The notes: generated by a model from the letters alone, not told the origin. A DNA stretch of 64,000 nt from Ignavibacteria bacterium (GCA_026417135.1 JAOADV010000002.1:136985-200984), one strand, 5' to 3'. Counted from the stretch's first letter, positions 22,721 through 37,482 are shown. Numbers and translations are program-made.

Positions 22721-22749
22721 AAAAGGCTGTCGAAACGACAGCCTTTTTT
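22721..22749 (+). terminator. Intrinsic terminator after hpf
   Basis: A 12-base stem (AAAAGGCTGTCG, 22721-22732, with its complement from 22736) closes a three-base loop and runs into a T-tract; an upstream T-run makes it potentially bidirectional. It separates hpf from the peroxidase/Rieske operon. Confidence 0.92.
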
Positions 22750-22800: not shown

Positions 22801-23883
22801 ATGCGTAGGAAAATGATTAGAAGTGGTTATAGTTTTTCAATCCTGCTTTTCGAGATTCTTTTTGTGTTTTCCCTTGTTCTTTTTTACAGTTGCGAAAAGC
22901 CGGCGGCCACTTCCAATCTTTCAGAAGAGAAAGATTTCTCCGTACCACCAAAGGGTTTCCCACCTATACCTTTCCCAAAAGAAAATCCTTATTCAAGGGC
23001 AAAATTTGAACTTGGGCGCCGATTGTTTTACGAGAAACTTTTGGTTCGCGATAGTTCTTTCAAATCTTGTTCACATTGTTTAAAGCAAGAATACAACTTC
23101 GACAACAATATTCCAAATACTCTTGGATATAACAGGATTGCTGAATTTCGCACAACTATGACCTTGACTAATGTTGCTTACTATCCGCGACTTTTTTGGG
23201 ATGGTCGCTTAGAAGGAGCACAGATTGAGCGTGTAGCCTATAGAAGTATGTTCTTACCATATATATTTGGGAACGACACCAATGTGATTAATTCAAGACT
23301 TACAAACCATCCAATATATCCCAAATTATTTCGAGAGACTTTTGGAGAAAATGCCAAACCTTCGGCTTGGTTAGCTGCACAAGCAATAGCAACATTCGTG
23401 CGATGTTTAGTAAGTGGAAATTCAGCTTACGACAGATATATTCGCGGCGATTCCAATGCTTTGACAGCATCTCAAAAAAGGGGTATGGTTCTCTTTTTTA
23501 GTGAACGAACTAATTGCTCGGTGTGTCATTCAGGATTTCTGTTCTCTGACTTTAAATTTCATAATACTGGAAACACTTTACATTACTTCGATTTAGGCAG
23601 ATTTTACGTTACTGGTCGTTACGAAGATAGATATAAATTTATGACGCCTTCCTTAAGAAATGTTGAAGTTTCCGCTCCTTATATGCATCACGGAATGTTT
23701 AAAACATTAGAAGAAGTTTTGGAAAGTTACAATCGTGGCGGCTTCCCTTCCATAAATAAAGATAGTATTGTTAAACCATTGAATTTAAACGAACAAGAAA
23801 AGCAAGACTTAATAAATTTTCTAAAGTCTTTAACAGATTGGAATTTCTTAAGAAATCCAGACTTTTCTGAACCAAAGTGGTAA
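22801..23883 (+). CDS. Di-heme cytochrome c peroxidase family lipoprotein lacking the first heme histidine
   Basis: A 360-residue member of the bacterial cytochrome c peroxidase/MauG family. A lipoprotein signal ends at 'LVLFYSC', so it is membrane anchored. The second heme motif is intact (CSVCH, residues 239-243). At the first heme position the sequence is CSHCL (residues 90-94): both cysteines are kept but the axial histidine is leucine. 'FWDGR' and 'TPSLRNVEVSAPYMHHG' are typical of the family. The next gene is a close paralogue with both motifs. It may be a mono-heme electron carrier or have an altered active site; catalytic activity is doubtful. An alternative start is the ATG at 22813. 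Confidence 0.88.
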   Translation: MRRKMIRSGYSFSILLFEILFVFSLVLFYSCEKPAATSNLSEEKDFSVPPKGFPPIPFPKENPYSRAKFELGRRLFYEKLLVRDSSFKSCSHCLKQEYNFDNNIPNTLGYNRIAEFRTTMTLTNVAYYPRLFWDGRLEGAQIERVAYRSMFLPYIFGNDTNVINSRLTNHPIYPKLFRETFGENAKPSAWLAAQAIATFVRCLVSGNSAYDRYIRGDSNALTASQKRGMVLFFSERTNCSVCHSGFLFSDFKFHNTGNTLHYFDLGRFYVTGRYEDRYKFMTPSLRNVEVSAPYMHHGMFKTLEEVLESYNRGGFPSINKDSIVKPLNLNEQEKQDLINFLKSLTDWNFLRNPDFSEPKW

Positions 23884-23952
23884 ATGAAATCACCTAATTT
23901 CAAATTAAATAAAGCAATTAACTAAATTTCTTTGGAAATTTTAAATGGGCGA

Positions 23953-23987
23953 CAATATTAGAAACCTTCGATTTCTAATTAATATTG
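23953..23987 (+). repeat. Imperfect inverted repeat between the two peroxidase genes
   Basis: TTAGAAA (23958-23964) pairs with TTTCTAA (23972-23978) around loop CCTTCGA. An outer stem pairs CAATA (23953-23957) with TATTG (23983-23987) across a small bulge. No T-tract follows, so it is not a standard terminator. It touches the upstream element of the next promoter. Confidence 0.5.
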
Positions 23988-24015
23988 GTTCAAGTTGATA
24001 GTTTTTTTAAATTTG
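23985..24015 (+). promoter_or_regulatory. Candidate internal promoter for the second peroxidase gene
   Basis: TTG (23985-23987), a 20-base spacer and TAAATTTG (24008-24015) fit the Bacteroidota pattern; the leader to the ATG at 24043 would be about 23 bases. It suggests that the second peroxidase and the Rieske genes can be expressed apart from the first. Confidence 0.45.
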
Positions 24016-24042
24016 TTAGTGTAATTTTTGAAGATTAATGTT

Positions 24043-25086
24043 ATGAATAAAACAGTTATATTAAAAATACTTTTGTTTTTTTTGATTCTCTTTCTTTTCA
24101 TTTGTTGCGAAAATTCAATAAAAGAGCCAAAGGATTACGAGTTCAATTATTCATCTCCTCCGCCAGGTTTCCCTCCAATTCCTTTTCCAGTTGATAACCC
24201 TTTCTCGAGTTCGAAGGAAAAGCTCGGACGATATCTGTTCTTCGAAAAAATACTTTCGCGAGATTCATCATTCAGCTGTGCAAGTTGTCATAATCCAAAA
24301 TATGCCTTTGCTGGAAATGTTCCAAATCCATTAACTATCAATAAATTTCCATTATTTAGAAATACTCTCTCTTTAGTTAATGTTGCTTATCGAAGGACAT
24401 TAGGATGGAGTGGGGAAGATATTACATTAGAGCATGCTATATATAATGATTTTTTCAGCCCACTTTTTTTCGATAACGATACAAATGTAATATTTCAAAG
24501 ACTGAGCAGTCATCCATTTTACCCGAAGATGTTCGAGGAAGCATTTGGAAAAGGAGTCAAACCTTATCCATACCTAGCTGCCAAAGCGATTGCAACATTT
24601 GTTCGAACACTCGTCTCTGGAAATTCTCAATACGATAAATATCTACGCGGCGACTCGAATGCTTTAACAACTAAGCAAAAGTTGGGGATGAGTCTATTTT
24701 TTAGCGAAAGAACAAAATGTTCGTTTTGTCACAGCGGCTTTTTATTTACTAATGAAAAATTCCACAATACCGGTACAACACCACACTATTTTGACTTTGG
24801 AAGGTACTACGTTACTGGAAAATTGGAAGACCGAAGTAAACTCAAGACTCCTTCGTTAAGAAATGTGGCTTTGACGGCTCCATACATTCACGATGGAACA
24901 ATGAGAACCCTTTGGGATGTAATTGAAAATTATAGCCGTGGAGGTTTTCCTTTTTTCAATAAGGATACAATAATTAAACCTTTAAACTTGACATACGAAG
25001 AAAAGGAAGCTCTTGTCGAATTTCTTAAAGCATTAACAGATATGGAATTTATCAACTCTCCACGCTTTAAAAGTTTTGGCTATTGA
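24043..25086 (+). CDS. Di-heme cytochrome c peroxidase family lipoprotein
   Basis: A 347-residue peroxidase/MauG-family protein with a lipoprotein signal ending at 'FLFICC'. Both c-type heme motifs are complete: CASCH (79-83) and CSFCH (226-230). 'FHNTGTTPHYFDFGRYYVTGKLEDR' and 'TPSLRNVALTAPYIHDG' follow. Family members reduce hydrogen peroxide with electrons from small carriers or, in MauG-like cases, oxidise protein side chains. The start is the ATG at 24043; a TTG five codons upstream is in frame. It closely resembles the preceding gene over its full length, showing a tandem duplication. Confidence 0.9.
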   Translation: MNKTVILKILLFFLILFLFICCENSIKEPKDYEFNYSSPPPGFPPIPFPVDNPFSSSKEKLGRYLFFEKILSRDSSFSCASCHNPKYAFAGNVPNPLTINKFPLFRNTLSLVNVAYRRTLGWSGEDITLEHAIYNDFFSPLFFDNDTNVIFQRLSSHPFYPKMFEEAFGKGVKPYPYLAAKAIATFVRTLVSGNSQYDKYLRGDSNALTTKQKLGMSLFFSERTKCSFCHSGFLFTNEKFHNTGTTPHYFDFGRYYVTGKLEDRSKLKTPSLRNVALTAPYIHDGTMRTLWDVIENYSRGGFPFFNKDTIIKPLNLTYEEKEALVEFLKALTDMEFINSPRFKSFGY

Positions 25087-25140
25087 AATATTAATTATTC
25101 CTCTTCGTTTTTTTAGTAGAGATGTTGCCAAATTAAGCAG

Positions 25141-25908
25141 ATGATAGATAGGAGAGATATATTAAAGCTCCTCTTTACCGCTATTGTAACGACACCATTT
25201 TTTCCTCATAAAATTCTTGGGAAAATTACACCAGACCTTAAACAAAAGGGTGACTCTTTGTTGGGAATATATGGAATAAGTTTAATAGACTATCCCGATT
25301 TGCAAAAAATTTGGGGCTCTGTTCGTATTAAAATTCAAGGAACTCTAATGTTTTATCCTAAAGTAATTATTGTTCGAGTACCAAAGGAAGAATATAATGT
25401 GGAGTTTATTGCAATTTCTGAACGATGTCCCCACGAAGGTTTCATCGTAAAAGATTTCGACCCCGAGTTGAAAATATTTGAATGTCCTGGCCACGGGACT
25501 CTGTTCGACGTTACTGGAAAATATGTTTGGGGGCCAGCAGCCCGCGACCTCGAGAGAATACAGGTCGAATACAATGGAACTGACACAATTTATCTTGAAA
25601 TTCCACTTTATCCACATAATGTCGAAGACCTAAATCCAAAAGAGAATTTGAACATAAATTTAATACGCGATATAGTCTCTCAAGAAAAACCTACTATCGA
25701 ATTTCAAATGACATTGGAAACTGTCTCGAATATAAAGATAAGCCTTTATGACTCTTTGGGCCGCTTAGTCTCTACATTATTCGAAGGAAATACCGATAGT
25801 AGATATTTTTCTTTCCCAGTCAGCTACTTAAAAGATGGAATATATTTCTTGAGATTATTCTTGAATAATCAACCAAAGATTACCAAAAAAATTATTATTG
25901 CAAGGTGA
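25141..25908 (+). CDS. Rieske [2Fe-2S] protein with a C-terminal T9SS sorting domain
   Basis: 255 residues in three parts. The N terminus has a twin-arginine-like signal ('DRRDILKLLFTAIVTT'), as expected for a cofactor-containing exported protein. The middle is a Rieske domain with both ligand boxes, Cys96-x-His98 ('RCPHEG') and Cys115-x2-His118 ('CPGHGTLFD'). From about residue 182 it is a T9SS type A sorting domain ('SLYDSLGRLVSTLF' and 'LKDGIYFLRLF' are the diagnostic strands), which normally directs a protein through the outer membrane to the cell surface. The protein is thus predicted to be a surface or secreted electron carrier. Its stop overlaps the next start by 4 bases. Confidence 0.88.
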   Translation: MIDRRDILKLLFTAIVTTPFFPHKILGKITPDLKQKGDSLLGIYGISLIDYPDLQKIWGSVRIKIQGTLMFYPKVIIVRVPKEEYNVEFIAISERCPHEGFIVKDFDPELKIFECPGHGTLFDVTGKYVWGPAARDLERIQVEYNGTDTIYLEIPLYPHNVEDLNPKENLNINLIRDIVSQEKPTIEFQMTLETVSNIKISLYDSLGRLVSTLFEGNTDSRYFSFPVSYLKDGIYFLRLFLNNQPKITKKIIIAR

Positions 25909-26444
25909 AGATTAAAATAACGCGTAGGTTGTTTTTAAAGGAACTATCTGATTTAATAAAGGGTGTCGGTGTTAGTGTAGTTATTTTACCTTTGATATCT
26001 TGTGAAAATGATTGGATAGTTCCACCAAAAATTTCAGGGAAGAGCATAGAATTAGATTTGACAAACGAAAGAAGCGATATTTTAAACTTGCCAGTGCTTA
26101 ATTTTCTTGGCGCTGGCTTGACAAAGCAATTTGAGGAAGTTAACTATGGTATTCCAGTTATTATTGTTCGTTTTAAGCGAGAAAATAAAGAGGATGATTT
26201 CCTATGTTTTTCAGGGATGTGTACTCACGACCAATGCTTTGGAAAGAATAAGGTTCGCGCTCCCTTAAAAATAGAAACTTTAAGTAATGGAGAAAAAGTT
26301 TGCCGTGTTATATGCACTTGTCACGGGTCTGAATTCGATTTACTTAGTGGTGGAAAAGTTCTAAAAGGACCTGCAGAAAAACCTTTACGAAAATTCGAAT
26401 GCTCTTTTAATCCTTCAAAAAACATATTAACGATTTACTACTGA
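25905..26444 (+). CDS. Rieske [2Fe-2S] lipoprotein with a Tat-type signal
   Basis: A 179-residue Rieske protein. It begins at a GTG that overlaps the stop of the previous gene (GTGA). The N terminus has a good twin-arginine motif ('TRRLFLKEL') followed by a hydrophobic stretch ending in 'LPLISC', a lipobox, so it should be a Tat-exported lipoprotein. The cluster ligands are Cys106-x-His108 ('MCTHDQC') and Cys137-x2-His140 ('CTCHGSEFD'); extra cysteines between them may form the disulfide usual in high-potential Rieske proteins. It resembles the stand-alone Rieske subunits of quinol oxidising complexes, but no cytochrome b gene is nearby. Confidence 0.88.
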   Translation: MKIKITRRLFLKELSDLIKGVGVSVVILPLISCENDWIVPPKISGKSIELDLTNERSDILNLPVLNFLGAGLTKQFEEVNYGIPVIIVRFKRENKEDDFLCFSGMCTHDQCFGKNKVRAPLKIETLSNGEKVCRVICTCHGSEFDLLSGGKVLKGPAEKPLRKFECSFNPSKNILTIYY

Positions 26445-26833
26445 TGAAAAAGGCTTGTGGTCTTGTTTTCATAGCAATTGCATTGCTAACAAGTTGTAAT
26501 GAAACCTCGATTCATAATCCCGAAGAAATAATTATTCCAGATTCTAATGTTAGTTTTCAAAATCACGTTTTACCGGTATTGCGTTACTCTTGTGGATTGT
26601 CGTATTGCCACGGAGAAATAGCACCTCAAGCAAACGTAATGATATACGATTATTATACTCTGATGTTTTCTTATGGAGGTGCTCTTGTGATACCAAGGCA
26701 ACCCGATGGAAGTGTTCTTGTGCAAATTATCGAATACAGATTGCCACATAAACCCACAATTGTTTGGAAAATTACCGAGAATCAAAGGAAGGGAATACGC
26801 CGCTGGATTTTAGAAGGTGCGTTTAATAATTAA
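26444..26833 (+). CDS. Small lipoprotein with a cytochrome-c-like heme motif
   Basis: 129 residues. The signal ends in 'ALLTSC' (lipobox). 'NHVLPVLRYSCGLSYCHGE' holds a Cys-x4-Cys-His motif, a longer spacing than the usual CxxCH. The rest ('VIPRQPDGSVLVQII' and 'ITENQRKGIRRWILEGAFNN') matches the small cytochrome c-like lipoproteins of Bacteroidota, where the terminal 'I..W..EGA..N' helix is typical. Whether heme is attached to the x4 motif is uncertain. The ATG shares one base with the stop of the preceding Rieske gene, so the three last genes of the operon are coupled. Confidence 0.72.
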   Translation: MKKACGLVFIAIALLTSCNETSIHNPEEIIIPDSNVSFQNHVLPVLRYSCGLSYCHGEIAPQANVMIYDYYTLMFSYGGALVIPRQPDGSVLVQIIEYRLPHKPTIVWKITENQRKGIRRWILEGAFNN

Positions 26834-26891
26834 TTTTATTATTTTGTAATTCTTAGTGTAATAATATTTGAAAAAAATAAAGGAGCTTTTT

Positions 26892-27911
26892 ATGAAAAAG
26901 AATCTTACTTTGTATTTGGCAGTTGTTTTTATTCTTCTTTTGTTTGCTTGCGAAGAAAAGAAAAAAATTGCAGAAATCAAGGAAATAGAAACCTACAGCG
27001 ACCCCGCTATGGGATTTAGTATCGAATATCCGTCGAATTGGGAAATACAAAAATATCCCGGCGACCGTTTTCTGGCTTTTACCACGAAAACGGTAATTAA
27101 ACGCTTTCGCACTTTTGATTCAGACGGTGAATCTGGAGCTAAAATCGAACTATTGGTTATTAGACTAAAGGAAGGTCAAACGCTTGATTCAGTAATGGCA
27201 ATAAAACAGTTTACACCAGATACTTATTCCCCGCCAACCAAATTGACAATAGATGGGGTGGAAGCATTTAAGCAAGAATATCGTTTCCAACTTAATGATG
27301 GTGAATTCCAAGGCGAAATTTATTATGCCCAAAAAGACCCAAGAGTTGCGACCGTAATTTCTTTCGAAGCATTTGGAGGTACTTTTGGTTCTTATAAACC
27401 GTTTTTCGAACGTGTTTTGAGCTCGGTCAAGTTGGCATACCAACCAGAAGTTGCACCCGATACCGTGAAGAAGATTGTAGAAGCTCCACCGCCATCTCAA
27501 AACTTAATAAAATACGATGGCGATGGTTTTTCTATAAAAATTCCCGATAACTTCGATGTTCGAAATCCAAAAGTCGGAGGTGCTTTAAAATCTTATCAAT
27601 ATATAGGTGAAAGACGGCTTGATTGCGATATTCGGGTAGATATCTTCGACGCATCCAAGCAACAAAATCTTGAAAAGATAGTCGAAGATAATAAAGCTAA
27701 GCATAAAAATGCTGAACCCAGACCTACCACAATCGGTGGTGCAAAAGCATATTACTTTGAATACTCGCCGATAGCTAACGTTAAAAGTCGCGTTTATTAT
27801 GCAATTCACAATAATAAGCTTTATCGAGTAACATTGAATTGGTTTACTGGTGAAGAGCAATTATACAAACCAGTATTTGAAAATTCGATTAGCTCGTTCA
27901 AATTTCAATGA
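26892..27911 (+). CDS. Lipoprotein with two PsbP-like domains
   Basis: A 339-residue lipoprotein starting at the ATG at 26892, which has a good AGGAG site; a TTG eight codons upstream is in frame but unlikely. The signal ends in 'LLLFAC'. Two similar halves each begin with a 'GFSI.. P..(W/F)' motif ('DPAMGFSIEYPSNWEIQ' and 'DGDGFSIKIPDNFDVR') and run about 140 residues, like the PsbP/DUF1795 fold. Function unknown. It follows the redox operon by some 60 bases, but nothing links its function to it. Confidence 0.65.
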   Translation: MKKNLTLYLAVVFILLLFACEEKKKIAEIKEIETYSDPAMGFSIEYPSNWEIQKYPGDRFLAFTTKTVIKRFRTFDSDGESGAKIELLVIRLKEGQTLDSVMAIKQFTPDTYSPPTKLTIDGVEAFKQEYRFQLNDGEFQGEIYYAQKDPRVATVISFEAFGGTFGSYKPFFERVLSSVKLAYQPEVAPDTVKKIVEAPPPSQNLIKYDGDGFSIKIPDNFDVRNPKVGGALKSYQYIGERRLDCDIRVDIFDASKQQNLEKIVEDNKAKHKNAEPRPTTIGGAKAYYFEYSPIANVKSRVYYAIHNNKLYRVTLNWFTGEEQLYKPVFENSISSFKFQ

Positions 27912-32911: not shown

Positions 32912-33967
32912 ATGAAAGGTCTGATTTTAGGGCTAAGCGTTCTTATAGGCATCGTTCTTGGATTATATCCTTCGATAGACAAACCTAAACCATTGTGGTG
33001 GAAGCTGGTAGTAATTATAACGCTATTTTTGACGATTTTTTTAACCTTTGCACCACATATTGGGTCGAACTTTGCAACATTCAGATATATAGCCCAAAAT
33101 GTCGAAAATTTTTCGGGTCCTCTATATTTCCAAATCGCTGAAAATTCAAAGGTAAATGTTGGAACTGATGAAAATCCAATTTACAAGATGGAAATCTTTA
33201 ACCCCAAATTACCTGTGGTAAAAGACACCCTAATAGTATTCGGTAATATTCCTTATGAAATCAATTCAAAAACACCCCTAATAGCAGAAGTTCGATACGA
33301 TAGTACAGAAGACAATTTTATTTTTGTAAAACTTGTTTCGATAAATCCTTTATTTGTTTTACCGTTAGTCCCTCAACTTGGTGAACAAATCAGAATTATG
33401 AATTTCCACGTTCCTTGTGCTTGGGTTGCTGTCGTTGCATATCTTTTTTCTTTATTTTATTCAGTTAAATACTTAAAGCATAGAAACTTTGAATACGACC
33501 AAAAAGCATATTCTTCGATATATTTAGGGACTATTTTCGCTTTTTTAGCAACTGTTACTGGGATGATTTGGGCTAAGTTCAACTGGGGTTCTTTTTGGAA
33601 TTGGGACCCTCGGCAAACAACTATGTTTGTCTTATTATTAATATACCTTGCATATTTTGTGTTAAGACAAAGTTTGAACAACCCCGATATTAGAGCAAGA
33701 TTAAGTTCTTCTTACTCCATTGTTGCATTTCTAACTGTTCCCTTTTTAGTTTTTGTTTTACCGCGACTTTTGGAAAGTAATCATCCCGGTTCGATTAATA
33801 GTCCAAATATTGGTCCTATTATTAGTACGCAAGAAGAGACTCTTAATCCTCTTCAAACATTAGGTTTTGGCTTCGGTTTTACTTCTTTTACCCTAATTTT
33901 CTTTTGGTTACTTAATATTAAAGTAAGGTTCCATAGAATTGAAAATCTTTTCAAGAGGAGTTTATGA
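32912..33967 (+). CDS. ccmC: Cytochrome c maturation heme-handling protein CcmC, N-terminally extended
   Basis: The core (about residues 150-350) is CcmC: 'MNFHVPCAWVAVVAYLFSLFYS' and the tryptophan-rich heme loop 'WGSFWNWDPRQT', with six membrane segments. It passes heme to CcmE. In front are about 150 additional residues with two membrane segments and a periplasmic beta-rich part that most CcmC proteins lack. The stop overlaps the next small gene by 4 bases (ATGA). The gene opens a maturation cluster with a CcmD-like gene, ccmE, ccmF and a thioredoxin. The ABC subunits ccmA and ccmB are absent from the window. Confidence 0.87.
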   Translation: MKGLILGLSVLIGIVLGLYPSIDKPKPLWWKLVVIITLFLTIFLTFAPHIGSNFATFRYIAQNVENFSGPLYFQIAENSKVNVGTDENPIYKMEIFNPKLPVVKDTLIVFGNIPYEINSKTPLIAEVRYDSTEDNFIFVKLVSINPLFVLPLVPQLGEQIRIMNFHVPCAWVAVVAYLFSLFYSVKYLKHRNFEYDQKAYSSIYLGTIFAFLATVTGMIWAKFNWGSFWNWDPRQTTMFVLLLIYLAYFVLRQSLNNPDIRARLSSSYSIVAFLTVPFLVFVLPRLLESNHPGSINSPNIGPIISTQEETLNPLQTLGFGFGFTSFTLIFFWLLNIKVRFHRIENLFKRSL

Positions 33968-34116
33968 TTAGTTTTCTCGTGCAAAATCAATTATTTGTCG
34001 TCTTGATTGTTGTATTCATAATCTGGATTGTCTTCATATTTTGGCTATTTAAAATCGACAAAGCTTTGTTTGAAATTGAAAAGAAAGTCAGAAATTTCGA
34101 AAACTTTAAGCAATAG
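33964..34116 (+). CDS. CcmD-like single-span membrane peptide
   Basis: A 50-residue frame from ATG 33964 to TAG 34114-34116. It has one hydrophobic segment ('VVLIVVFIIWIVFIFWLF', residues 12-29) followed by a charged tail ('KIDKALFEIEKKVRNFENFK'). Size, topology and position between ccmC and ccmE are those of CcmD, which holds CcmC, CcmE and the ABC transporter together; the sequence itself is too short for firm homology. Its ATG overlaps the ccmC stop. Confidence 0.6.
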   Translation: MISFLVQNQLFVVLIVVFIIWIVFIFWLFKIDKALFEIEKKVRNFENFKQ

Positions 34117-34127
34117 ATGGTTAAATT

Positions 34128-34526
34128 ATGAAAAAATATATTTTAATAGCTTTTGCAACTATTATCTTTCTAATTCTTATCCTTGTTTCGTTCAATAAAA
34201 GTGCGATTGTATATACAGATTTTCAAAATGCTAAGAAACTTGGGAAACGAGTGCAAGTGGTTGGTTCTTGGATTAAGGAGATGCCAATAAGATACGACAT
34301 AAATTCGAGCAAATTTGAATTTTATATGAAAGATAAAAAAGGCGAGGTTATGTTCGTTTCCCATAATGGTGCTCAACCAAATAATTTCACCATTGCACCA
34401 GAAATTGTTGTGCAAGGTTTTGTTAAAGATACAACTTTTGTTGCCTCGCAAATTATCACAAAGTGTCCCTCGAAATATGAAGGTGAAGTTGAACATTTAA
34501 AGTATGGAGGCGAAATTGTTAGGTAA
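34128..34526 (+). CDS. ccmE: Cytochrome c maturation protein CcmE, cysteine-type
   Basis: A 132-residue heme chaperone with an N-terminal membrane anchor and an OB-fold domain. In the classical protein a histidine (HxxxY) binds heme covalently. Here the corresponding motif is 'TKCPSKYEG', with Cys113 and Tyr117 (CxxxY). Cysteine-type CcmE proteins are known from archaea and Desulfovibrio and go with the 'System I*' variant lacking CcmH. It passes heme to CcmF, whose gene overlaps its end by 23 bases. Confidence 0.9.
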   Translation: MKKYILIAFATIIFLILILVSFNKSAIVYTDFQNAKKLGKRVQVVGSWIKEMPIRYDINSSKFEFYMKDKKGEVMFVSHNGAQPNNFTIAPEIVVQGFVKDTTFVASQIITKCPSKYEGEVEHLKYGGEIVR

Positions 34527-36789
34527 AATCATTTTATATTTATCAGCTTTAAGTTGGTTACAATCTTTTTTGCTCCTTCTTTTTGGTTCTAAAAAAAACG
34601 AGATTTCCGATAATCTGAATAAATACGGACTTTGGGCTTTTTACTCTGGTATTTTAACTATTGTTCTTGCATCAATTTATTTGCTATTCAATATACTTTC
34701 CTACAATTTTACTTTAAGTTATGTTTGGAGCTACTCTTCTCGGAAATTACCTTTCCTTCTTCTAATTTCTTCTTTCTATGCTGGGCAAGAAGGCTCTTTT
34801 CTCCTTTGGGCATTATTTCTTTCACTTGTTGGATTTTTCTTATATCTATATTTAAAAAAATATTCTTTCGAGTTTTTGCCTCTTTCGTTTCTTTCGCTCG
34901 TAGTTTTTTTTATTACAATTATTCTAATTTTCAAAAGTCCATTTGCCGATATTTGGGAAACATTTCCCGATGGAAACATTCCTAAGGATTTTGTGCCCCA
35001 AGACGGTAGAGGTTTAAACCCAGTCTTAGAAAATTACTGGATTGCAATACACCCACCAATCTTATTTTTGGGGTATTCGCTATTAACGGTTCCATTTGTG
35101 CTTTTACTCTCTTCCTTTGTTAAAAAAGACTTTTATGGATTTCAAAAAGCAAGTTCTTTTTGGGCACTACTTGCTGCTGGTGTTTTAGGATTAGGAATTA
35201 TGCTTGGAGGTTTCTGGGCTTACGAAACATTAGGTTGGGGTGGGTATTGGGGTTGGGACCCCGTAGAAAATTCATCTCTTGTACCTTGGATTTTTGTAAC
35301 TGCGCTTGTCCATACATTAATACTCCAAAGAGTAAATGGTGGCTTCATTCGAACAAATTATATTTTGAGTTGGTTAAGTTTTGTTGGCGTACTTTACGCT
35401 ACTTATCTTACAAGGAGTGGGGTATTAAGTGATACCTCAGTTCATTCATTTGTCGACCCCGGTAAAGTTGTAAATGCCTTGTTACTCACTGGCCTCGGAA
35501 TTTTCATCCTTTTTCCTATTGTCATTTTTTTCTTTGCGACCAAAAGTATCCCTAAAGAAAATCGCCGCATAGGCTCTTTTTCAAGAGAATCTTTTACAAT
35601 TTTTGGGACCATTGTTCTAATCCTTGCTGCTTTGGTGATTATTGTCGGAACTAGTCTCCCCATCATACAAGATGTAATTGGCGCTCCAAAAGTTGCACTT
35701 GAACCTTCTTTCTACAATCAATGGATGCTACCCATCGCAATATTGATTCTAATTTTAAATGCCCTTTCTTTGTATTTTAAATGGAAAGATGCACAGTTGA
35801 ATTTTATAACAAAGCAGATTATTCTAAATTTCAGTCTTTCCCTTGCTTTTGCAATAATATTCTTTCTTTTTATAAATAAAAGTATTCCATTTGCGATTTT
35901 GGTTTTTAGCATTGTGTTTGCTATTACAATAAATTTAAAGAAATCTGTTGAAAAGATTCTTAGTGGTAACTTAAAGCTTGGCGCCTTTCTTTCTCATTTA
36001 GGAATAGCTTTGCTTTTTCTTGGCTCTTTACTTTCTGGTGGTCTTGAAGAAACTAAAACTATCAATTTGATTGAAGGCAAACAAGCGTCCGCTTTCGGTT
36101 ATGACTTTATCCTTTTTAAAAAGGAACAAATAGAGTTAGATAAACCAGATAGAGAAAAGTATAAATTCCACATAAAGGTAAACTCTTCCGGAGTCTCGAC
36201 AGTTGTTAAACCAATAGTATATTGGAGCGAATTTAATAATTTCGAGCAACCATTTTTCGAGCCAGACATAAAAACTTTTGTAACTAAGGATTTGTATTTT
36301 TCTCCAAAATCACTTGCCTTTACCGACCTTTTTAGCCCCATCACGCTGAAAAAAGGGCAAAAGGTGCCTGCACCTTGGTCTTCTAATGATAGTATTCATT
36401 TTGTAAGTTATGATATGAGCTCAATGCATCGTAATCCAAATCAGAATTTCTTCAATTTTGGGCTGGTAATTAATTACTTTATCGATGGCAAAGAGTTTGT
36501 TGATACAGTTTATTCACTTTTGAACTTAAATATGAACTCTTTTAATCCTGTATGGAGTATCGTCCCAACGAAGGACTTTTCAATCGGTTTTATAAAATTT
36601 TCGCCCGAGGAGAATCTCGAAAATTCAACTGTCGAATTGGCTTTCGGACAAGAAGTTTTCATCGCTGATGTTTCAATTAAACCTTTTATTTTATTAGTCT
36701 GGATTGGTGTGATTTTTACGGTTGCTGGGTTTATTATTGCGGTATTCAAATATAGACATCAAATAAACAATACTAATTTCACAACCTAG
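34504..36789 (+). CDS. ccmF: Cytochrome c heme lyase subunit CcmF
   Basis: A large membrane protein (761 aa, longer than the about 650 of E. coli). The heme-handling tryptophan-rich loop 'GWGGYWGWDPVENSSLVPWI' and 'PVLENYWIAIHPPILFLGYS' are clear. About 14-15 membrane segments are visible. A long periplasmic domain near the C terminus (residues about 510-730) precedes the last membrane segment. With the CcmG-like thioredoxin it attaches heme to apocytochromes. No ccmH is found downstream. Confidence 0.95.
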   Translation: MEAKLLGKIILYLSALSWLQSFLLLLFGSKKNEISDNLNKYGLWAFYSGILTIVLASIYLLFNILSYNFTLSYVWSYSSRKLPFLLLISSFYAGQEGSFLLWALFLSLVGFFLYLYLKKYSFEFLPLSFLSLVVFFITIILIFKSPFADIWETFPDGNIPKDFVPQDGRGLNPVLENYWIAIHPPILFLGYSLLTVPFVLLLSSFVKKDFYGFQKASSFWALLAAGVLGLGIMLGGFWAYETLGWGGYWGWDPVENSSLVPWIFVTALVHTLILQRVNGGFIRTNYILSWLSFVGVLYATYLTRSGVLSDTSVHSFVDPGKVVNALLLTGLGIFILFPIVIFFFATKSIPKENRRIGSFSRESFTIFGTIVLILAALVIIVGTSLPIIQDVIGAPKVALEPSFYNQWMLPIAILILILNALSLYFKWKDAQLNFITKQIILNFSLSLAFAIIFFLFINKSIPFAILVFSIVFAITINLKKSVEKILSGNLKLGAFLSHLGIALLFLGSLLSGGLEETKTINLIEGKQASAFGYDFILFKKEQIELDKPDREKYKFHIKVNSSGVSTVVKPIVYWSEFNNFEQPFFEPDIKTFVTKDLYFSPKSLAFTDLFSPITLKKGQKVPAPWSSNDSIHFVSYDMSSMHRNPNQNFFNFGLVINYFIDGKEFVDTVYSLLNLNMNSFNPVWSIVPTKDFSIGFIKFSPEENLENSTVELAFGQEVFIADVSIKPFILLVWIGVIFTVAGFIIAVFKYRHQINNTNFTT

Positions 36790-36828
36790 TCGTTAATATA
36801 TTCTTTAATAGCAATATTAGGAGGAATT

Positions 36829-37482
36829 ATGTTTTCCAAGGTTCTTGTAACATCGTCAATGTTGTTTTTATTTTTGCTACATATTTCTTCTTGCAAATCC
36901 GAAACGAGAGAAATCGAACAGACTAAAGTTCAAAAAGAAGAACTTACAGTTTTCGAAGAGATAGCTCAGAATGAGATTTTATCTGATAACACACAAAGCA
37001 AAACGCCTGAATTCATTCCCCTCGTATTTGTGGCTTCGTCGGTATCGACTGGCAAACCCGGCACTTTGGTTAATTTCACTTGGAAGCAAAATGGAAAAGA
37101 AGTAAATTTTAGCGATTTTGCAAAAAACAAAATTGTTCTCCTAAACTTTTGGGGAACTTGGTGTCCACCTTGTCGAAAAGAATTACCCGATTTAATCGAA
37201 ATTCATAACGAAAGCGAAGGCCAAGATTACGTCGTTGTCGGAGTTACTTTGGAACGTGACCCTGCAAATGCTGAAACTATCGTGAAAGATTTTGCTAAGA
37301 AACAAGGTATAAAGTATCTAAATATTGTCGACAAAGACCATTCTATTGCGCGTGCCTATGGAGGTATTTCGGCGGTTCCAACCACATTCATTATCGACAA
37401 AAAGGGGAAAATTGTCGAAACACTTGTGGGAGCAAGACCAAAGCGAGACTTTATTGATGCAATTAGCAGGGCAAGGAAATAG
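36829..37482 (+). CDS. Lipoprotein thioredoxin, TlpA/ResA/CcmG-like
   Basis: A 217-residue thiol-disulfide reductase. It begins after a strong AGGAGG site, has a signal ending in the lipobox 'LHISSC', a 70-residue linker, and a thioredoxin fold with the active site 'WGTWCPPCRKELPDL'. The cis-proline region 'ISAVPTTFIIDKKGK' is present. Directly after ccmF it most likely keeps apocytochrome CxxCH motifs reduced for heme attachment (CcmG role). Confidence 0.9.
   Translation: MFSKVLVTSSMLFLFLLHISSCKSETREIEQTKVQKEELTVFEEIAQNEILSDNTQSKTPEFIPLVFVASSVSTGKPGTLVNFTWKQNGKEVNFSDFAKNKIVLLNFWGTWCPPCRKELPDLIEIHNESEGQDYVVVGVTLERDPANAETIVKDFAKKQGIKYLNIVDKDHSIARAYGGISAVPTTFIIDKKGKIVETLVGARPKRDFIDAISRARK

Follow-up and report, generated by a model that had tools for sequence, protein, structure and literature searches.

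A linked set of exported MbnH-type and Rieske proteins in Candidatus Kapabacteria as a candidate envelope electron-transfer module

A 64,000-nucleotide stretch from an Ignavibacteria bacterium (GCA_026417135.1 JAOADV010000002.1:136985-200984), here called the window, contains a gene cluster for two members of the bacterial cytochrome c peroxidase (CCP)/MauG superfamily, CCP1 and CCP2, and two Rieske proteins, the first with a sorting tail of the type IX secretion system (T9SS; RieT9) and the second a lipoprotein (RieLp). We propose, with a probability of about 0.5, that CCP1-CCP2-RieT9-RieLp is a lineage-specific, non-peroxidatic electron-transfer module that would reach from the periplasm to the cell surface. 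The genes are linked in several genera, their products carry export signals, the peroxide-activating residues have been lost, and heme 2 is retained.

An earlier note on this DNA had described five exported redox proteins, encoded by a five-gene operon belonging to neither a bc1 nor a Rieske-oxygenase locus. The five open reading frames, all on the plus strand, lie where it had placed them, with both of the overlaps and the domains it had assigned, and its view of an exported redox gene set outside these two kinds of locus holds. The five genes are adjacent and coupled; however, what had been taken for one operon consists of a four-gene core plus a resident pair, made up of a small lipoprotein gene (cytLp) and a gene for a PsbP-like lipoprotein.

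Gene linkage and layout

The core is linked in at least four genera (g1, g6, g15, and g19) of one family, and the relatives that carry it are Candidatus Kapabacteria. The order is CCP-CCP-RieT9-RieLp in g6 and g19 and CCP1-RieT9-RieLp in g15; in g23 one contig carries the CCP and another the Rieske pair, and in g7 CCP-RieT9 lies near a contig end. Linkage in relatives was the test by which the earlier note proposed to be refuted, and linkage of the core genes was found in several genera. The module is real and, as far as searched, lineage-specific. It is very improbable that these genes are chance neighbors with no shared function. cytLp is a neighbor at the genus level only, and in G025 the genes for CCP1-type proteins (called CSHC proteins below, after their altered heme-1 motif) have no recognized Rieske partner, though both lie near contig ends; against this stands the CCP-CCP-RieT9-RieLp order, kept in several genera by proteins that are 35-58% identical to those of the window.

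The features of the locus are as follows, in window coordinates.

22801..23883, plus strand: CCP1, an MbnH-type protein and lipoprotein (Cys31) with a degenerate heme-1 site (PF03150, 4e-30)
23068..23082, plus strand: former heme-1 motif of CCP1, C90-S-H-C-L94, axial His replaced
23263..23265, plus strand: CCP1 Ile155, at the position of the catalytic Glu (MauG Glu113)
23515..23529, plus strand: CCP1 heme-2 motif CSVCH (CXXCH invariant, 120/120)
23728..23730, plus strand: CCP1 Tyr310, which aligns with MauG Tyr294, the heme-2 axial ligand (phmmer register 312 to MauG 296; Tyr in 12/12)
24028..25086, plus strand: CCP2, an MbnH-type di-heme protein and lipoprotein (Pfam CCP_MauG)
24277-24291, plus strand: CCP2 CASCH motif
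24466-24468, plus strand: CCP2 Phe147, at the Glu position
25141..25908, plus strand: RieT9, a Rieske protein with a T9SS tail (PF00355 and PF18962)
25150-25155, plus strand: twin-arginine N terminus of RieT9
about 25654-25899, plus strand: T9SS sorting tail of RieT9 (PF18962, Por_Secre_tail)
25905..26444, plus strand: RieLp, a twin-arginine-type Rieske lipoprotein (RR7-8, Cys33; PF00355)
26444..26833, plus strand: cytLp, a small lipoprotein, genus-level neighbor and not part of the core (CX4CH motif at 26591-26611)
22721..22747, plus strand: strong terminator-like hairpin with a 12-pair stem and a T tail, between the upstream S30AE gene and CCP1
26868..27911, plus strand: PsbP-like lipoprotein, old partner of cytLp (PF18933)

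Gaps of 144 bases (CCP1-CCP2) and 54 bases (CCP2-RieT9) precede overlaps of 4 bases at 25905-25908 (RieT9/RieLp) and 1 base at 26444 (RieLp/cytLp), the latter replaced by a gap of about 4-13 bases in other members of the genus. The likelier start of CCP2 is ATG 24043, not TTG 24028. The two CCPs match the Pfam family CCP_MauG; RieT9 and RieLp both match Rieske, and RieT9 also matches Por_Secre_tail. Lipobox cysteines, judged by eye, occur in four of the five products, in line with the four lipoproteins previously claimed. A scan for a conserved promoter found none, its matches being fewer than in shuffled sequence. Genes resembling CcmC, CcmF/NrfE, and ResA, for cytochrome c maturation, lie downstream of the operon at a distance of about 6-10 kb (32912-37482 of the window).

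In five species of the window's genus the order S30AE-CCP1-CCP2-RieT9-RieLp-cytLp-PsbP is the same, the cluster of G004 being split over two contig ends. A cytLp homologue is present in 58 of 60 genomes; it adjoins panB in most genera examined, often with the PsbP-like gene next. Because cytLp is near-universal in the order and mostly sits beside panB and PsbP, we rejected it as a core member and regard the window as the junction of a four-gene core with an older pair: the cytLp-PsbP pair is older and became attached to the core in the window's genus alone. The panB-cytLp-PsbP neighborhood is conserved order-wide (L175-L194), and cytLp homologues alternate between CX4CH and CXXCH. Tested against Pfam PSCyt1, the window's cytLp gave no match, and the orthologue of G003 scored 21.8 bits against a cut-off of 22. 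A lipoprotein gene divergent to CCP1 in three genera was also rejected as part of the module, since it occurs in 54 of 60 genomes regardless of the module; its product is thioredoxin-like by eye and has a CxC motif (L039:8087-8614, L040:2213-2737, and L041:11921-12493).

Loss of the peroxide-activating site

Among curated models, the MbnH model TIGR04039 gives both CCPs their best score (243 bits for CCP1 and 264 for CCP2, below the cut-off of 362.85), and both score well below the MauG cut-off. Their best solved relative by sequence is PDB 6e1c, titled MauG-like protein associated with copper homeostasis, which we take to be MbnH. For CCP1 this is borne out by an AlphaFold model built from 106 sequences (pLDDT 94.3), which was used for structural comparison instead of an earlier model from 10 sequences (pLDDT 58). 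It superposes on 6e1c with a Z score of 38.7 and a root mean square deviation of 1.7 over 313 residues; the Z scores are about 32-33 for bacterial CCPs, 30 for MauG, and 27 for BthA. The assignment of the CCP2 fold to the MbnH family comes from the sequence match. In alignment, MauG Tyr294 on heme 2 corresponds to CCP1 Tyr310 and CCP2 Tyr302, so that neither CCP has the Met ligand of a low-spin heme; Met is found only in an unlinked, ordinary CCP with intact residues encoded elsewhere in the window's genome (G000:C55).

CCP2 has two CXXCH heme c motifs; CCP1 does not, its first motif reading CSHCL. CSHC is invariant in all 12 CCP1 orthologues, which represent six genera, and the residue after it is Leu, Met, or Lys and never His, which is also why we rejected a sequencing error; the 108 other CCPs collected all have CXXCH at heme 1. 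The substitutions extend to the distal side. At the positions of MauG Gln103, Pro107, and Glu113 (a numbering that follows the phmmer register and motif spacing, not a structural superposition), ordinary relatives have Gln in 94/100, Pro in 90/100, and Glu in 98/100, percentages that apply to near relatives only, the comparison set having been picked by similarity to CCP1. CSHC proteins have mostly Pro or Val at the first position, Ser or Thr at the second, and Ile at the third (12/12). The operon CCP2s have Ala or Met, then Asp, then Phe (four copies, all in the window's genus) or Val (two copies, in g19), which leaves all six without the Glu.

Is this plain decay? At 43 of the 48 positions that are near-invariant in the family, at least 10 of the 12 CSHC proteins have the usual residue; apart from the heme-1 His and the Glu, the only exceptions are S82, D102, and T291. 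H92, E115, Y147, R148, S149, and I155 are each shared by at least 11/12 CSHC proteins and rare elsewhere, Y147 being common to the operon CCP2s as well. Because these substitute residues are themselves conserved, the heme-1 site of CCP1 has been remodeled under selection and has not simply decayed. Judged from its sequence, CCP1 has lost the peroxidatic site. Among the best 80 loci of a scan of the genome collection, CSHC proteins occurred in only six, all from Kapabacteria. In two other Bacteroidota MbnH-like proteins (L098:6839-7855 and L120:6860-7885), Thr or Asn stands where the catalytic Glu would be.

These residues bear directly on the peroxide removal or MauG-like protein oxidation that the earlier note had suggested, and both are disfavored, as far as conserved residues can tell: every CCP1 orthologue lacks the proximal His together with the distal Gln, Pro, and Glu. 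As a periplasmic peroxide reductase, CCP2 (with a Glu-bearing upstream CCP in some genera) would reduce H2O2 with electrons fed by the Rieske proteins and CCP1. The CCP fold and the two CXXCH motifs of CCP2 are consistent with this, the Glu is kept in the upstream copy of L039 and in L045, and related hot-spring members face daily hyperoxia (PMC6338057). We nevertheless consider it improbable, since in CCP2 the partners of the Glu, the Gln and the Pro, are replaced along with it and since the genome encodes the ordinary, Met-ligated CCP elsewhere.

More doubtful still is a MauG- or MbnH-like maturation reaction, in which CCP2 would oxidatively modify a residue of a Rieske or other exported protein. 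MbnH is the closest solved relative of CCP1 and the heme-2 Tyr ligand is retained, but besides the loss of the H2O2-activating Glu from CCP2 and of the heme-1 ligand from CCP1, the partner protein is missing: MbnP (PF20243) was not found in G000-G004, G009, G010, G018, G022, G025, or G026, which are all the CSHC-bearing genomes among the 60. It is present in 12/60 relatives, mostly beside ordinary MbnH genes. Compared with the MbnH/MbnP system, CCP1 shares the fold and both CCPs the heme-2 Tyr and CXXCH, whereas Rieske proteins take the place of MbnP. MauG and BthA share with the window's proteins the superfamily fold and the Tyr that replaces Met on heme 2 (PMC6405878); their distal acid-base Glu is conserved, whereas it is Ile, Phe, or Val in CCPs of the window type. 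Bacterial cytochrome c peroxidases are alike in superfamily fold and differ in having Met on heme 2 and the catalytic residues that are missing here.

The two halves of the CCPs have different histories. In a tree of the N-terminal halves, all 12 CSHC proteins fall into one clade (support 0.91), whose sister group is the Glu-less CCP2s. The C-terminal halves place CCP1 of the window's genus with CCP2 of that genus. Within a genome, the two proteins are 64-89% identical in the C-terminal half, which holds heme 2, and 43-55% in the N-terminal half. These trees are most simply explained by gene conversion of the heme-2 domain. The co-evolution of the heme-2 halves within genomes points to a surface with which CCP1 and CCP2 may bind a shared partner.

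Two Rieske proteins with Tat-type signals

Both Rieske proteins score far below the curated cut-offs. The nearest solved relatives of RieT9 are arsenite oxidase AioB structures, and its cluster ligands are C96/H98 and C115/H118, with no disulfide pair; in L040 the C115/H118 pair contains one residue more. RieLp, for which a sequence search matched no solved structure, has the CTHxxC...CTCHGS motif of the bc type, seen in cytochrome bc and b6f complexes (CTHxxC...CxCHGS) and absent from RieT9; its ligands and the extra pair C111/C139 are invariant in 9 orthologues. Unlike the AioB and bc systems, the locus has no adjacent cytochrome b or molybdenum subunit, and RieT9 has a T9SS tail; no cytochrome b open reading frame was found near the locus, the rest of the genome not having been searched for one. 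Genus relatives are reported to have ACIII and aa3 oxidase and to lack complex III (PMC6338057), which makes the Rieske proteins unlikely subunits of that complex.

RieT9 has an invariant twin-arginine motif in 10/10 orthologues, in place of what would be a Sec-type signal (judged by eye), along with a Por_Secre_tail C terminus in 10/10 and a match to the Rieske model in 9/10. In RieLp the twin arginines are invariant in 9/9 and the lipobox Cys is present. The window's genome encodes TatC (E 1e-65) of the twin-arginine translocation (Tat) pathway and has homologues of the sorting tail at several other sites. RieT9 resembles T9SS cargo in its tail and appears to differ from it in its Tat-like signal, a combination that is unexpected because, according to a review, Sec signals are found on all T9SS effectors (PMC10202324).

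T9SS Rieske homologues outside the family were rejected as instances of the module, since the neighbors of those examined include no CCPs. In related families, Rieske proteins related to RieT9 (L064-L073) have as neighbor either a NuoE-like gene or an EB_dh protein that contains CX4CH. The window's genome also has a second Rieske cluster (L232:6424-11213; G000:C60, about 77.4-82.2 kb), which comprises multiheme cytochromes, a Tat Rieske lipoprotein, a small cytochrome, and a 394-amino-acid protein, perhaps a porin-cytochrome, whose N-terminal part contains CSACH; similar clusters occur in L175, L176, L177, and L185.

Electron transfer, thiol chemistry, and sulfur

The chain from periplasm to surface that the earlier note had sketched still fits the parts and is our leading model, with peroxide and MauG-like chemistry taken out of it. 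We hypothesize that, in the periplasm, electrons pass between RieLp, a Tat-exported Rieske lipoprotein of the high-potential type, and the c-type heme 2 of both CCPs, which would serve as electron carriers and not as H2O2-activating enzymes. Tat would export RieT9 in folded form with its [2Fe-2S] cluster in place, and the T9SS would carry it onward; RieT9 would then give electrons to, or take them from, something at the cell surface. The remodeled pocket of CCP1 (CSHC, E115, Y147, R148, S149, and I155) would have a conserved role, probably in docking or in holding a heme without the usual ligand, and in the window's genus the resident cytLp-PsbP pair would have been appended to the module.

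Several points weigh against this model. CCP2 retains its heme-1 CXXCH, and the Glu is kept in the upstream CCP of G009 and in the CCP of G010, so some lineages may retain catalysis. There is no porin or multiheme conduit among the module genes. RieT9, going by its predicted signal, could not reach the surface if that signal stayed uncleaved, and the passage of electrons between RieLp, the hemes of the CCPs, and RieT9, with its surface endpoint, is inferred rather than observed.

It is also possible, though unlikely, that CCP1 has a new catalytic site where its heme-1 pocket used to be, with CSHC as a redox-active dithiol or a metal site, in which case the module would be a Rieske-fed thiol or sulfur oxidoreductase. 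CSHC resembles the CPHC of DsbA, but it counts against this idea that the likeness is one of motif and not of established homology. In its favor, the conservation of the pocket residues across genera and their rarity elsewhere point to a site under selection. Moreover, CXXCH is nearly all that System I recognizes, and NrfA depends on a dedicated lyase for its CXXCK (PMC3601427). This makes covalent heme attachment at CSHC[LM] of CCP1 doubtful and leaves a thiol site standing.

A link to sulfur is suggested by dsrA, which is present in 8/11 CSHC genomes and in 6/43 without a CSHC protein (hypergeometric p 0.0003 when genomes are counted and 0.009-0.024 when genera are, both tests ignoring the tree). 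However, the window's genome, G025, and G026 have no dsrA match, and dsrA occurs without a CSHC protein in G011, G024, G029, and G075-G077. Because the window's own genome lacks a match, we rejected dsrA as a strict partner and keep it as a weak association; a sulfur link, if there is one, is not obligate, and the co-occurrence is suggestive but not tight. Although G000 has no match, dsrA is found in the other four genomes of the genus, which suggests that the window's species has lost dissimilatory sulfur metabolism.

Returning to the electron-transfer module, we can tentatively envisage a bolder and less likely version, in which CCP1 founds a subfamily whose heme-1 site was rebuilt as a new redox center (a dithiol, a metal, or an unusually ligated heme) and, together with a surface Rieske protein that takes a hitherto undescribed path through Tat and then the T9SS, would make up a new kind of envelope oxidoreductase, possibly linked to sulfur. 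The superfamily of bacterial CCPs and MauG is defined by the chemistry of the peroxidatic heme, and a conserved clade that retains the scaffold while swapping exactly those residues is a natural experiment on the purpose of heme 1. If the proposed export is true, a cofactor-bearing Rieske protein whose Tat and T9SS signals are kept from genus to genus would contradict the view that T9SS cargo always passes unfolded through Sec, and a route for folded, metal-loaded T9SS cargo would become directly testable.

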